Below, piece by piece: positions 51,643 to 56,608 of a stretch of 64,000 nucleotides of DNA. Source of the stretch: an uncultured Saprospiraceae bacterium (lineage in GTDB: Bacteria > Bacteroidota > Bacteroidia > Chitinophagales > Saprospiraceae); the NCBI GenBank assembly GCA_938015595.1, contig CALLPI010000013.1, forward strand, positions 1 through 64,000, read 5' to 3'. The notes under the pieces were generated by a model, which saw only the letters and a list, made by a program, of their open reading frames with translations, searched no databases and had not been told where the DNA came from. Every line of letters starts with the position of its first letter. Position 1 is the stretch's first letter. Made by a program: the position numbers and the translations under genes.

Positions 51643-52473
51643 ATGGAGTCCTTTTCAATTGAGTTGCAGATCAATCCGAAGCTATATTTGCGCAACCCTC
51701 AAAGGAGTGACGTAGGGCGTCGCATACTCAAGCACAGCATCTTACTCATTGACGAAATTGGCCTGGAGCGCTTCACCTTCAAAAAGCTGGCACAGAAAAT
51801 AGACTCTACCGAGGCGGGCATCTACAGATATTTTGCCAACAAGCAGATGCTGCTACTATATCTTGCCAACTGGTATTGGGAGTGGATGAAAGTGCACATC
51901 AACCTCTCGGTACATAATATTGATCATCCTGTGGAACGCCTGCGCAGGGCTATTGCTGCGGTAGTCAACACTGCCAAACGAAATACCAACGTAGAATTTA
52001 TTGACGAGGACATACTGCATCGCATTGTCGTAGTGGAAGGCACCAAGGTTTATCATCACAAAAGCGTAGATGAGCAAAACAAGGAAGGCTACTTTGCAGC
52101 CTACAAAACCTTATGCACCCTCCTGGCCGACATTATATTGGCGGTAAATCCTAACTTTCCCTGGCCGCGCGCATTGGCTACCAATATTTTGGAAATGGCC
52201 AGCAACCATGTGTACTTTGCCCTACATCTACCACGCCTTACCGATGTAAAAGCAGGACCGGATACCTTGGAGCAGGTCACCCGACTTATAGAGGCTTTTA
52301 CGCTCAGCTTGCTCAATGTTCTTACTTCCGAAAACCGTGTTGAAGTAAACGGAGACGCCCCGACAGAACCGTTACTACCGCGCAATGGCCAACCCTATTC
52401 CTCTGCCGCCCGAATCAACGGCAACGACCAGACACACACCTTGTCGCCCTTTGACGAATATCTTCATCTGTAA
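51643..52473 (+). CDS. TetR-family transcriptional regulator
   Basis: 276 residues, longer than usual for TetR. The N-terminal HTH is at about 25-72: GRRILKHSILLIDEIGLERF, TFKKLAQKIDSTEAGIYRYF and ANKQMLLLYLANWYW. The ligand-binding core follows, then a polar tail of about 45 residues. It lies 22 bp before the SPFH lipoprotein gene in the same direction and likely regulates it and the ABC/HlyD genes. The ligand is unknown. Confidence 0.9.
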   Translation: MESFSIELQINPKLYLRNPQRSDVGRRILKHSILLIDEIGLERFTFKKLAQKIDSTEAGIYRYFANKQMLLLYLANWYWEWMKVHINLSVHNIDHPVERLRRAIAAVVNTAKRNTNVEFIDEDILHRIVVVEGTKVYHHKSVDEQNKEGYFAAYKTLCTLLADIILAVNPNFPWPRALATNILEMASNHVYFALHLPRLTDVKAGPDTLEQVTRLIEAFTLSLLNVLTSENRVEVNGDAPTEPLLPRNGQPYSSAARINGNDQTHTLSPFDEYLHL

Positions 52474-52495: not shown

Positions 52496-53350
52496 ATGAA
52501 AACAATATCTTTTCGAATTGGGCTCCTGGCCATTCTGGCTATTTTGATCCTGCCATCATGTATTGTGGTACGCCAGGGAGAAGTGGGCGTAAAGCGCACG
52601 CTGGGTCGGTATAAGGATCAACCCTACACTGAGGGATTAAAAGTATTCAACCCTTTCATCAGTACCTTTGTGCGCGTACCCACACAAACCATAAACCTGG
52701 AAGTAGCGCTCAACTTACCTTCGCGTGAGGGGCTGACTATCCAGTCGGAGGTATCTATTCTGTACAGCGTGATTCCGCGCAAAGCACCTGACCTGCTGCG
52801 CAATGTAGGCCGCGAGTACGAGCGCAGCATCATTCTGCCAGTATTCCGCTCTGCCGTAGCCGACGTGACCGCCCGTTTTGATGCCAAAGACATGCACACT
52901 GGCGAGCGCGGCACCATAGAAATGGCTATCCGAGACCAAATGGCTAAGCTGCTGGTAGATCGCGGCATTGTAATAGAGGCCGTGCTGCTTAAGAGCATCG
53001 TGCTACCAAGGAGCCTGTCAAGGGCTATTGAAGAAAAACTAGAAGCCGAGCAAGCTGCCCAGCGCATGGAGTTCGTACTACAGGAAGCCCGACGCGAAGC
53101 CGAGCGCAAGCGCATCGAAGCCGAGGGCGTACGCGATGCCCAAAATATCATTGCTGAAGGCCTCAGCCCTATCCTTGTACAATACCGTTCTATCGAGGCC
53201 TTCCTGGAGTTGGCCAAGTCCCAAAATGCCAAAGTTATCATTACTGATGGCAAAGCACCTGTGATGATGAACGTGGATGCCGATACCACACCCTCCGTAC
53301 CGGCCATACGAAATACCGGTACTTCTAGTAGTATGTCAAGAAGCAACTAA
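52496..53350 (+). CDS. SPFH (prohibitin/stomatin-like) lipoprotein
   Basis: 284 residues from ATG 52496; the frame extends 37 codons upstream inside the TetR gene, with no signal there. It begins with a lipoprotein signal (IGLLAILAILILPSC), then an SPFH domain: QGEVGVKRTLGRYKDQPYT, EGLTIQSEVSILYSVIP, RSAVADVTARFDAKDMHT, IVIEAVLLKSIVLP. The C-terminal helix is rich in charged residues (EEKLEAEQAAQRMEFVLQEA), as in proteins that form membrane rings. Being lipidated suggests it assembles on the periplasmic side or at the outer membrane. It lies between TetR and the ABC gene. Confidence 0.88.
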   Translation: MKTISFRIGLLAILAILILPSCIVVRQGEVGVKRTLGRYKDQPYTEGLKVFNPFISTFVRVPTQTINLEVALNLPSREGLTIQSEVSILYSVIPRKAPDLLRNVGREYERSIILPVFRSAVADVTARFDAKDMHTGERGTIEMAIRDQMAKLLVDRGIVIEAVLLKSIVLPRSLSRAIEEKLEAEQAAQRMEFVLQEARREAERKRIEAEGVRDAQNIIAEGLSPILVQYRSIEAFLELAKSQNAKVIITDGKAPVMMNVDADTTPSVPAIRNTGTSSSMSRSN

Positions 53351-53442: not shown

Positions 53443-55191
53443 ATGGCCGATACTCCGGGATTCAGCTCTATAAAGCGATTTTTCAAACTGCTACAGCTTG
53501 ATCGCAAAGATATAGGCTACATTTACATATATGCTGCCTTTGAAGGCCTGATTGCACTTAGCTTACCACTGGGGATACAGGCGATTATTGGCCTAATTGC
53601 CGGGGGTGCAATATCTGCTTCACTCATCTTATTGGTGGCAGCAGTGACTATGGCGACCGCTATGTCGGGTATTCTGCGCATCATGCAGATTACGGTCATG
53701 GAGAACATTCAGCGTCGCATCTATACGCGTTCGGCCTTCGACATTGCCTACCGCATTCCGCGTTTCCGCGTTGAGCTGCTCTCGCGCCACTATGCGCCTG
53801 AGTTGATGAATCGCTTCTTTGACACCTTAACCTTGCAAAAAGGTATTCCTAAAATCATCATTGACCTCTCCACTGCGGGCATCCAGATTTTTTTCGGGCT
53901 GATCCTCATCTCTTTTTATCACCCATTTTTTGCTTATTTTGGCGTAGGCTTACTGGTGTTTCTCACTGTGATTTTCCGATTCACGGGGCCACCAGGGCTA
54001 GCCACCAACCTCTTGGTATCCAAGTACAAATACGAGACGGCCTACTGGCTAGAGGAAGTGGCGCGCTCTATGACCACCTTCAAACTAGCTGGTGAAACGG
54101 ATTACCCTCTCAAAAAGACGAACTACTACGTCAGCAAATACTTAGACTGCCGCAAGACTCACTTCGGCATCCTGCTGTACCAGTACGGCTCATTCGTATT
54201 GCTCAAGTCGGTAATTACGGCAGCGTTCCTGCTGTTGGGGGCTTACCTGGTCATACAGAACCAAATCAACATTGGCCAGTTTGTGGCTGCCGAGATCGTA
54301 GTACTGCTCACCATTAGCTCTGTGGACAAGATGATCCTAAGCATAGAAACCATCTACGACGTACTTACCGGCCTGGAGAAACTGGGCTTTGTGACCGATC
54401 TGCCCATTGAGGACGATAGCGGTATCCGCTTTGACGAAATTGACAAGGGCGTCGGGTTGAGCGTGAAGATTCAAGACCTCAACTTCACCTACGAAGGCAG
54501 CGCCAAGCCTGCGCTGCGCAACATCAACCTGGAAATTGCCTCTGGCGAGCGCGTGTGTATCGCAGGCTACAACGGCGCAGGCAAGTCCACTCTGGTACAG
54601 ATCATCTCCGGGTTGTACAGCAACTTTGGCGGTATCGTCGCTTACAACGGATTCCCTTTCAAAAACCTGAACATGGTCAGCTTGCGTGAACACATCGGCG
54701 ATTATTGCACTCAGGAAGACATCTTCCGAGGTACTATCCTAGAGAACATCACCATCGGCCACAAAGACGTTACCATAGAAGATGCGCTTTGGGCAGCCGA
54801 AAAAATGCACCTGCATGCTTACGTAAGCCAACTGCCTGAGGGCTACAACACCCTACTAAATTCAGAAGGGACCAACATTGCACAAGGCGCTCGCACCAAG
54901 ATCATCCTGGCCAGAGCCATAGCTACCAAGCCCAAGTTGTTGGCTATGGAAAGTTTTTTGCGCGGCCTGGACCAAAATGATCGCGCGGAAATTGCCGAGT
55001 TTCTGACCGACCGCGCCAACCCCTGGACTTTCGTCGCTGTTTCCAATGATCCGGTGTTAGCTGCCCGATGCGACAAGGTGGTCATCCTCAAAGAAGGCGT
55101 CATGGTAGCGCAGGGCACATTTGACGAAATTTCACAAACTGAACATTTTGAAAAAGTATTCAAGGTATCTGAACTCGACTTGCTGACCTGA
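53443..55191 (+). CDS. ABC exporter-like protein with degenerate ATPase motifs
   Basis: 582 residues from ATG 53443 (ADTPGFSSIKRFF). Residues 1 to about 330 hold the six-helix ABC exporter membrane domain. Walker A (GYNGAGKST, 375-383, Lys381) and the Q-loop (YCTQEDIF) are intact. However, the signature is IAQGARTKIILARAI (480-484) instead of LSGGQ, Walker B reads LLAMES with Met502 where the Mg-binding Asp should be, although Glu503 remains, and the H-loop His is Asn535 (VSND). No C39 peptidase domain is present. It probably works with the HlyD-type protein that follows; either ATP hydrolysis is impaired or a non-canonical mechanism applies. Confidence 0.88.
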   Translation: MADTPGFSSIKRFFKLLQLDRKDIGYIYIYAAFEGLIALSLPLGIQAIIGLIAGGAISASLILLVAAVTMATAMSGILRIMQITVMENIQRRIYTRSAFDIAYRIPRFRVELLSRHYAPELMNRFFDTLTLQKGIPKIIIDLSTAGIQIFFGLILISFYHPFFAYFGVGLLVFLTVIFRFTGPPGLATNLLVSKYKYETAYWLEEVARSMTTFKLAGETDYPLKKTNYYVSKYLDCRKTHFGILLYQYGSFVLLKSVITAAFLLLGAYLVIQNQINIGQFVAAEIVVLLTISSVDKMILSIETIYDVLTGLEKLGFVTDLPIEDDSGIRFDEIDKGVGLSVKIQDLNFTYEGSAKPALRNINLEIASGERVCIAGYNGAGKSTLVQIISGLYSNFGGIVAYNGFPFKNLNMVSLREHIGDYCTQEDIFRGTILENITIGHKDVTIEDALWAAEKMHLHAYVSQLPEGYNTLLNSEGTNIAQGARTKIILARAIATKPKLLAMESFLRGLDQNDRAEIAEFLTDRANPWTFVAVSNDPVLAARCDKVVILKEGVMVAQGTFDEISQTEHFEKVFKVSELDLLT

Positions 55192-55228: not shown

Positions 55229-56608
55229 ATGCTGAATATATCTGAAAACTCCATCATTGGCAAAATTGATACCCGAAAGTACAGCGCTTTCAGCCGGATG
55301 GACCTGGCCAAAAGCCACGCTTTGTTTACTCGATGGTTAGCGCTGGCGCTGGTATTGTTCATCCTATTCCTGATGCTGCCCTGGACGCAAAACATCCAGG
55401 CACGCGGGCAGGTTACAACGCTAAAACCTGAACAGCGCCCACAGTTCATCCCCTCGGCCATAGCTGGGCGTATCGAAAAATGGTACGTACAGGAAGGCCA
55501 ACTGGTGCGTAAAGGCGATACTATTGTATGGATTTCTGAAATCAAGGCAGAGTACTTCGACCCCTTACTTGTGGAGCGCACCGAGAAACAGGTAATAGCC
55601 AAAGAAGGTTCTATGCGCGCCTACGCCAACAAAGCCGAAGCACTGGACAACCAAATTGCCGCCATGCGCAACGAATTGGAGTTCAAACAGCGACAACTGC
55701 GCAATAAAATAGACCAGGCGCGCTTCAAAATTGCCGCCGACAGCGCCGACCTCACCCAGGCCATCATCCAAGACTCCGTGGCCCGCATCCAGTACCGACG
55801 CACTCAAGCACTCTTTGAGCAGGGCCTTGAGCCACGCACCAAAGTAGAAGACCGCCGCGTAAAACTCCAGGAAACCGAAGCCAAAGTGGTGGCAGCTCGC
55901 AACAAGCTCGATGCCAGCCGTAACGACCTGAGCATTGCCCAACTGGAGCTCAGTACCGTGCAATACGAGTACAATCAGAAAATAGCCAAAGCAGAATCAG
56001 AGCGCTTTGCCACCCTATCTTCACTGTACGACACCGAGGCCGGCGTCAATAAACTACGCATCGAATCAGCCAACTATCGGCAACGCAGCACCTTCTACTA
56101 TATTCTGGCGCCCCAGGATTGCTACATCACCAAAGCTATTACGCCCGGCATAGGCGAAACTGTAAAAGAAGGCGACCCCATTGTAAGTATTGTGCCTGCT
56201 GACTATCAGCTGGCTGTAGAACTCTATATCAACCCCATGGACTTGCCGCTCATCCACTTTGGCCAGGATGTCAGGTTCATCTTCGATGGCTGGCCAGCTT
56301 TTATCTTTAGTGGCTGGCCAGGGCAGTCATTCGGCACCTATAGTGGCCAGGTAGTGGCTATTGACAATATGATCAGCGACAACGGCAAGTACCGCATCCT
56401 CATCACACCAGGGCCAAACGACAAGCCCTGGCCTAAGGAACTGCGCCCCGGCTCTGGTGCAAAAGGCATCGCGTTGCTCAATAACGTACAACTCTGGTAC
56501 GAACTCTGGAGAAAGCTCAATGGATTCCCGCCAGATTTTTATACGCCCAAAAAAGACAAAGAAGAGGACAAGCTCAAACGAAAAGCGCCGGCCAAGTCGT
56601 TGAAGTAA
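55229..56608 (+). CDS. HlyD-type membrane fusion protein
   Basis: 459 residues. One N-terminal membrane helix (WLALALVLFILFLMLPW, about 36-52) is followed by a beta-barrel/lipoyl half motif (IPSAIAGRIEKWYVQEGQLV RKGD split across the domain, about 75-97), a long coiled coil (about 110-290, many Q/K/R/E) and the second lipoyl half (ITKAITPGIGETVKEGDPIV). It spans the periplasm and should link the ABC protein to an outer-membrane channel. No TolC-like gene follows. It starts 37 bp after the ABC gene in the same operon. Confidence 0.93.
   Translation: MLNISENSIIGKIDTRKYSAFSRMDLAKSHALFTRWLALALVLFILFLMLPWTQNIQARGQVTTLKPEQRPQFIPSAIAGRIEKWYVQEGQLVRKGDTIVWISEIKAEYFDPLLVERTEKQVIAKEGSMRAYANKAEALDNQIAAMRNELEFKQRQLRNKIDQARFKIAADSADLTQAIIQDSVARIQYRRTQALFEQGLEPRTKVEDRRVKLQETEAKVVAARNKLDASRNDLSIAQLELSTVQYEYNQKIAKAESERFATLSSLYDTEAGVNKLRIESANYRQRSTFYYILAPQDCYITKAITPGIGETVKEGDPIVSIVPADYQLAVELYINPMDLPLIHFGQDVRFIFDGWPAFIFSGWPGQSFGTYSGQVVAIDNMISDNGKYRILITPGPNDKPWPKELRPGSGAKGIALLNNVQLWYELWRKLNGFPPDFYTPKKDKEEDKLKRKAPAKSLK

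Follow-up and report, generated by a model that had tools for sequence, protein, structure and literature searches.

The window, which is the whole 64,000-nt stretch of DNA analysed here, is part of contig C13 in a 3.77-Mb genome and contains a gene coding for a degenerate ABC exporter half, recognised as such by Pfam, an AlphaFold2 model, and fold matches. The exporter and its neighboring genes are arranged as follows.

51643..52473, + strand: TetR-type regulator, upstream of the exporter (domain match)
52496..53350, + strand: SPFH/band-7 protein, between the TetR-type gene and the exporter (start codon inferred)
53443..55191, + strand: degenerate ABC exporter half, 582 aa, ATG at 53443; the transmembrane domain (TMD) comprises residues ~1-325 and the pseudo-nucleotide-binding domain (pseudo-NBD) residues ~335-582
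55229..56608, + strand: periplasmic adaptor of the HlyD type that partners the exporter (domain match and homologues in relatives)

An ECF-type sigma factor gene is also found upstream, and the adaptor gene starts 37 nt past the exporter. Pfam detects ABC_membrane at residues 26-283 of the exporter (45.3 bits, cut-off 28) and ABC_tran at residues 358-501 (72.4 bits, cut-off 25). Its nearest named relative, 80% identical, comes from a Saprospiraceae MAG (L021), in which the HlyD gene is followed by a gene matching Pfam OEP (TolC-type channel domain). The TolC orthologue of the window's genome is 70% identical to that of L021 and is located on another contig (G000:C5:148484-149896, L286; also L294:4976-6502), adjoining a gene for a 1064-aa AcrB-type pump, and thus one channel may serve two pumps.

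This arrangement is common among the relatives that possess an NBD. A HlyD homologue was detected by tblastn directly downstream in 154 of the 156 relatives with room for it, L107 and L146 being those in which it is missing. Among the first 140 members collected, a TolC cluster is present downstream in 80 of the 86 with room, and a TetR cluster is located no more than 1.2 kb upstream, on either strand, in 59 of 133. The TetR neighbors give a weak hint of a small-molecule substrate. The SPFH/band-7 gene is situated between the TetR-type gene and the exporter in the window and in both relatives from the same genus, and among 150 examined loci, 10 contain its cluster (counting duplicates of one genome).

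The positions of the nucleotide-binding motifs were read from an alignment that included seven canonical exporters encoded by the same genome, a reference set that is not textbook throughout: in one of the seven the catalytic Glu is replaced by Asp, and three are without the first Gly of the signature.

54565..54588, + strand: Walker A, residues 375-382, GYNGAGKS, intact
54877..54891, + strand: signature position, residues 479-483, I-A-Q-G-A for L-S-G-G-Q
54937..54954, + strand: Walker B position, residues 499-504, L-L-A-M-E-S, with Glu503 for Asp and Ser504 for the catalytic Glu
55045..55047, + strand: H-loop position, Asn535 for His (alignment with the canonical exporters)

The initial annotation had described an intact Walker A, a broken LSGGQ motif, and an H-loop His replaced by Asn535, all of which are confirmed by the alignment. 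In the signature, Ser and Gln are both replaced by Ala and the first Gly by Gln, while the second Gly is kept; the change of the first Gly is weak evidence because three canonical exporters also lack it. The inference that a homodimer would be without two functional signature motifs follows from these losses. Loss of the Walker B Asp had also been claimed and holds, but its placement at Met502 was one residue early: in the ungapped alignment to the D-loop Asp510, Met502 is the last hydrophobic position and Glu503 aligns to the Asp. In addition, Thr423 occupies the place of the Q-loop Gln. A decaying copy had been expected to reveal itself by close homologues with canonical motifs; instead, the proteins of two other species of the genus, which are also 582 aa long and have the identical start Met, carry the altered motifs and match the window exporter at the eight positions compared, save for Ile in place of Ala483 in one of them. 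Since these residues are shared by the genus relatives, the altered motifs can be attributed neither to chance nor to sequencing error.

Signs of purifying selection were observed in both domains. By the Nei-Gojobori method, eight pairs give a dN/dS of 0.018-0.144 for the NBD; for the TMD the ratio is 0.009-0.048 in those pairs with a finite dS, although the ratios of the window's own pairs are rough because dS is saturated (infinite in one). As a control, two of the seven canonical exporters were compared across the same three genomes, and their NBD identity (0.80-0.84) exceeds that of the TMD (0.69-0.83) in all six comparisons. For the degenerate exporter in these genomes, by contrast, it is the TMD (0.84-0.92) that is more conserved than the NBD (0.74-0.77), in three of three comparisons. 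Purifying selection together with this reversed ranking implies that the pseudo-NBD is still under selection, with its priority reversed relative to canonical exporters.

The altered exporter is widespread. At E <= 1e-60, matches to the window protein occur in 111 of the 150 genomes from its taxonomic family (its own included) and in 97 of the 395 from its phylum. We collected 244 distinct family ORFs besides the window's, six of which were incomplete and were dropped (L161_4, L160_3, L159_3, L280_0, L201_1, and L161_7), leaving 158 NBD-bearing and 80 NBD-less ORFs; with the window exporter added, there are 159 NBD-bearing proteins. The great majority of these (148/159) are degenerate, and the other 11 are near-canonical. 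None of the 148 degenerate proteins keeps the signature Ser and Gly, and none keeps the Asp-Glu-His set of Walker B and H-loop (Asp-Glu alone persists in four). The Asp-Glu pair is replaced by Glu-Asp in 55, Glu-Asn in 19, and Glu-Glu in 16 of the 148, and by Glu-Ser in the window. Walker A has its Gly, Gly, Lys, and Ser/Thr intact in 123 of the 148, and its Lys is present in 149 of all 159 NBD-bearing proteins and absent in 10. The near-canonical relatives retain Asp-Glu-His in 8 of 11 and the signature Ser and Gly in 3 of 11. A consensus ATP site is described as being built from Walker A, Walker B, and the H-loop of one half and the signature of the other (PMC7756269); considering that neither set survives in any degenerate protein, no partner could complete one canonical ATP site. 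A dedicated subclass, one of the options raised at the outset, is therefore supported by the loss of catalytic motifs common to these 148 proteins. An N-terminal extension of about 130-245 aa was observed in 8 of the 11 near-canonical relatives and, among the degenerate ones, in 14 of 147 (L165, L145, and L141 are examples of relatives that have it), and Pfam scans of the extension in three relatives gave no match.

Some relatives are without the domain altogether. Six matches in the phylum stop at some point within residues 322-342 of the window protein, and 80 distinct complete NBD-less ORFs of 329-385 aa were identified in three other families (f3, f9, and f10) of the same class; their share of the collection is not a frequency, as three of the searches used an NBD-less query and took loci from the best 30 matches each. 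Every one of the 80 is followed by a same-strand HlyD homologue, which starts to match 2-149 nt after the final codon, and a TolC cluster follows in all six that were examined with 4-kb flanks. We also considered a split gene, with the NBD encoded as a separate downstream ORF, and rejected it: NBD homology was found downstream of none of the 80 (1.4-1.5 kb examined for 75 and at least 3 kb for five). These ORFs are under constraint as well, with dN/dS of 0.027-0.139 in 10 close pairs, and they retain the TMD signature of the family, together with the linker after TM6 through which the NBD was formerly attached (Lys313 and Asp319 present in all 80). Of 12 TMD regions compared, a single one, the tip of coupling helix 2, shows weaker conservation where the NBD is missing (entropy of 2.48 bits in the NBD-less set versus 2.11 bits in the window's branch, represented by its 136 NBD-bearing proteins); the NBD-less set is the less diverse one, so generally lower entropy in it means little and the reversed region alone is informative. 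Relaxation of this tip is expected because there is no NBD left to touch. The coupling-helix regions themselves are gap-free in the 80 relatives (1% gaps at the helix 2 tip).

In three of the NBD-less proteins Pfam reports ABC_membrane and nothing else (E 0.01); the Pfam family of SbmA/BacA has no match in these three or in the window protein, and a TMD-only phmmer search against PDB sequences returned nothing at E 0.01. Some genomes possess two NBD-less paralogues or both NBD-less and NBD-bearing copies (L281 and L282 in G808; G742 and G710, the last two judged by open-frame length).

The order of events was examined by phylogenetic analysis of the TMD. A 71-row IQ-TREE phylogeny included 20 of the 80 NBD-less proteins, 28 of the 136 in the window's branch, and all of the 12 other degenerate and 11 near-canonical proteins. 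The near-canonical proteins stand outside the degenerate ones (100/100), and the NBD-less sample forms one clade (100/100), which has a degenerate NBD-bearing protein as its sister (97/89) and shares a branch with 12 degenerate NBD-bearing rows (96/84). In a FastTree analysis of 246 rows, all 80 NBD-less proteins again fall into one clade (support 1.0), with an immediate sister supported at only 0.47. The single clade implies a single loss of the motor within the sampled proteins. An AU test of the opposite arrangement, in which one branch keeps every degenerate NBD-bearing row to the same side, does not reject it (p=0.0763), although it scores 24.4 log units lower. Nesting of the NBD-less clade within the degenerate class, i.e., erosion before loss, is thus favoured by these phylogenies but not proven.

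Structure prediction agrees with an exporter fold. The AlphaFold2 model of the window exporter (11 alignment rows; mean pLDDT 65) is of good quality for the NBD and of poor quality for the TMD; the NBD fold is predicted with block pLDDT of 60-92, and the model contains a helix at 277-318. The best Foldseek matches are ABC exporters, including TM287/288, PCAT1, PrtD, and HlyB, and the pseudo-NBD superimposes on the ComA NBD with a Z score of 28.3 and an rmsd of 1.9 A over 237 residues. Based on the quality of the NBD model and the match to ComA, the pseudo-NBD is predicted to keep its fold. SbmA does not appear among the best 50 fold-match rows, which is uninformative either way. The window protein thus has the six-helix TMD and NBD fold of an ABC exporter of the type IV/type I secretion class, the TMD being modelled with low confidence.

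Several acidic residues in the TMD are conserved throughout the family, and two of them are located as follows.

53701..53703, + strand: Glu87, cytoplasmic end of TM2, conserved acidic position
54292..54294, + strand: Glu284, predicted TM6, candidate ion-coupling residue

Residue 284 is acidic in all 80 NBD-less, 148 degenerate, and 11 near-canonical proteins, and in none of the seven canonical exporters. Residue 87 is Glu in every NBD-less (80/80) and degenerate (148/148) protein, Asp or Glu in the 11 near-canonical ones, and acidic in none of the seven canonical exporters, and residue 141 is acidic in 238 of 239 family members and one of the seven. On the basis of this conservation, the acids at 284, 87, and 141 are candidates for ion coupling. 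They did not arise with NBD loss, since the near-canonical relatives already have them; they may have predisposed the TMD to a switch of power source, or may have another role.

ABC transporters are textbook ATP-driven pumps. Here, the NBD is worn out and has vanished in dozens of relatives while the rest of the pump was kept, suggesting a conversion to another power source. We lean slightly towards the reading that this is a TolC-type tripartite exporter that no longer hydrolyses ATP, in which the TMD is driven by an ion gradient and the pseudo-NBD serves as a nucleotide-binding gate or scaffold. The pump would consist of the inner-membrane ABC exporter, the HlyD adaptor, and the TolC channel; an ion gradient, rather than ATP hydrolysis, would drive the exporter TMD, and the pseudo-NBD with its retained Walker A would be a gate that binds nucleotide or a scaffold that stabilises the dimer, not a motor. 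By analogy with SbmA, or with MsbA and LmrA when reduced to their TMDs, an ion gradient is probably the energy source. Several observations stand against this reading. The conserved acids already occur in the near-canonical relatives; Walker A is intact in most degenerate members, which suggests that nucleotide binding still matters; Glu-Asp might keep weak hydrolysis in the 55 members that have it; the coupling-helix regions of the NBD-less relatives are undeleted, unlike those of SbmA; and the AU test does not reject a placement of the NBD-less clade outside the degenerate class.

A rather unlikely alternative is an exporter gated by ATP that is bound but not hydrolysed. Walker A would bind ATP or ADP, dimerisation or release of the pseudo-NBD would open or shut the path, and the substrate would enter the HlyD/TolC conduit by moving down its gradient. 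The frequent retention of Walker A, the predicted NBD fold, and the low dN/dS of the NBD are all in line with such a gate. However, the signature Ser and Gly, which close the ATP sandwich, are lost in all 148 degenerate proteins, the Walker A Lys is itself absent in 10 of 159, and the NBD-less relatives manage without nucleotide.

It is improbable that ATP power is supplied in trans, by pairing with a canonical ABC half or by a free ATPase encoded elsewhere, even though canonical exporters are present elsewhere in the window's genome (seven examined) and the NBD-less genomes have many other ABC proteins. No partner restores a consensus site with a protein lacking both the signature and Asp-Glu-His. 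Around 140 members, often with 1.5 kb examined on each side, another ABC-ATPase ORF was detected near only two, on the opposite strand in both cases, and one further ABC ORF is a fragment of the member's own gene. Moreover, the matches listed for six NBD-less genomes comprise ordinary ABC proteins at low identity and include no second member of the family. The pairing with another ABC half that the initial annotation had entertained is weakened by these results. A heterodimer with an operon partner, in particular, was rejected, as no same-strand ABC-ATPase ORF other than that fragment lies within the flanks examined.

Residual or unorthodox ATP hydrolysis by a homodimer, via substitutes such as Glu503, appears decidedly improbable. 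Walker A is kept and the Glu-Asp, Glu-Asn, and Glu-Glu pairs are common, as such activity would have it, but the signature has gone along with the catalytic base and the H-loop, the NBD changes more quickly than the TMD (the reverse of what the two canonical exporters of the same genomes show), and 80 relatives have no NBD at all. Finally, a decaying pseudogene or an artefact of the window's genome, at which the simultaneous loss of several motifs could hint, is to be given almost no credence and is ruled out by the intact ORF, purifying selection, the same residues in the two other species of the genus, and the wide occurrence of the gene in the taxonomic family.

The ion-driven exporter proposed here can be set beside several known systems. 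The type I secretion and peptidase-type exporters HlyB, PCAT1, and PrtD hydrolyse ATP with intact motifs. This class, which is among the closest folds and profile matches of the window exporter, shares with it the TMD-NBD half, the adjoining HlyD, and a TolC-type partner, whereas the window's family lacks the signature, the Walker B/catalytic pair, and the H-loop, and some of its relatives lack the NBD. In TM287/288, TmrAB, TAP, and Pdr5, which have one degenerate site, the same motifs decay (PMC7756269), but one consensus site is kept, whereas neither site can be consensus in the window's family. The TMD of MsbA alone performs proton-coupled export, and that of LmrA is reported to do likewise (PMC4979069); these isolated ABC TMDs without an NBD are engineered truncations exporting in the laboratory, in contrast to the natural truncated forms of the window's family.

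SbmA, a well-described natural example of a proton-driven ABC-type TMD, is proposed to derive from a full-length ABC transporter; what its authors propose is a separation of the TMD from the NBD, through split YddA-like genes, rather than a motor dying in place (PMC13316013). SbmA/BacA (SLiPT) resembles the NBD-less relatives in having an ABC-type TMD that works without an NBD and conserved acidic residues, but, according to the features given for it, it is an importer, has an extra TM0, and has lost the coupling helices (PMC13316013). The window's family differs in its exporter operon with HlyD/TolC and in its living relatives with a dead NBD. The absence of an NBD that characterises SLiPTs is seen only in the 80 NBD-less relatives, as the window protein has the NBD fold, and, with respect to the SbmA glutamate ladder for proton coupling, conserved acids were located in the family by its own alignment. 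Thus, the family is a real, conserved subclass, an ABC exporter by fold and operon, probably SbmA-like in its working, and a strict member of neither group. A search of the open-licence PMC literature with few terms found no description of a Bacteroidetes type I exporter with a degenerate or missing NBD. It is a serious possibility, falling a little short of probable, that this is a second, independent conversion of an ABC exporter to secondary-active, ion-gradient transport, inside a TolC-type machine, with three stages still alive in Bacteroidota: a near-canonical motor, a dead motor kept as a gate, and a deleted motor. Because near-canonical, dead, and absent motors all share one operon setting, the re-powering of an ABC TMD becomes directly testable.

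Relatives also occur on plasmids. A degenerate relative of 724 aa on a Persicobacter plasmid is followed by HlyD and then a TolC-type gene, and the same gene order is found for a degenerate relative on an Aureibacter plasmid, whose annotation reads 'ABC transporter ATP-binding protein'; a gene annotated in this way should not be assumed to be ATP-driven. On sphingomonad plasmids (Novosphingobium, Sphingobium, and related), TMD relatives were observed with 29-35% identity over 59-66% of the NBD-less query, some of which are annotated as 'ABC transporter transmembrane domain-containing protein'.
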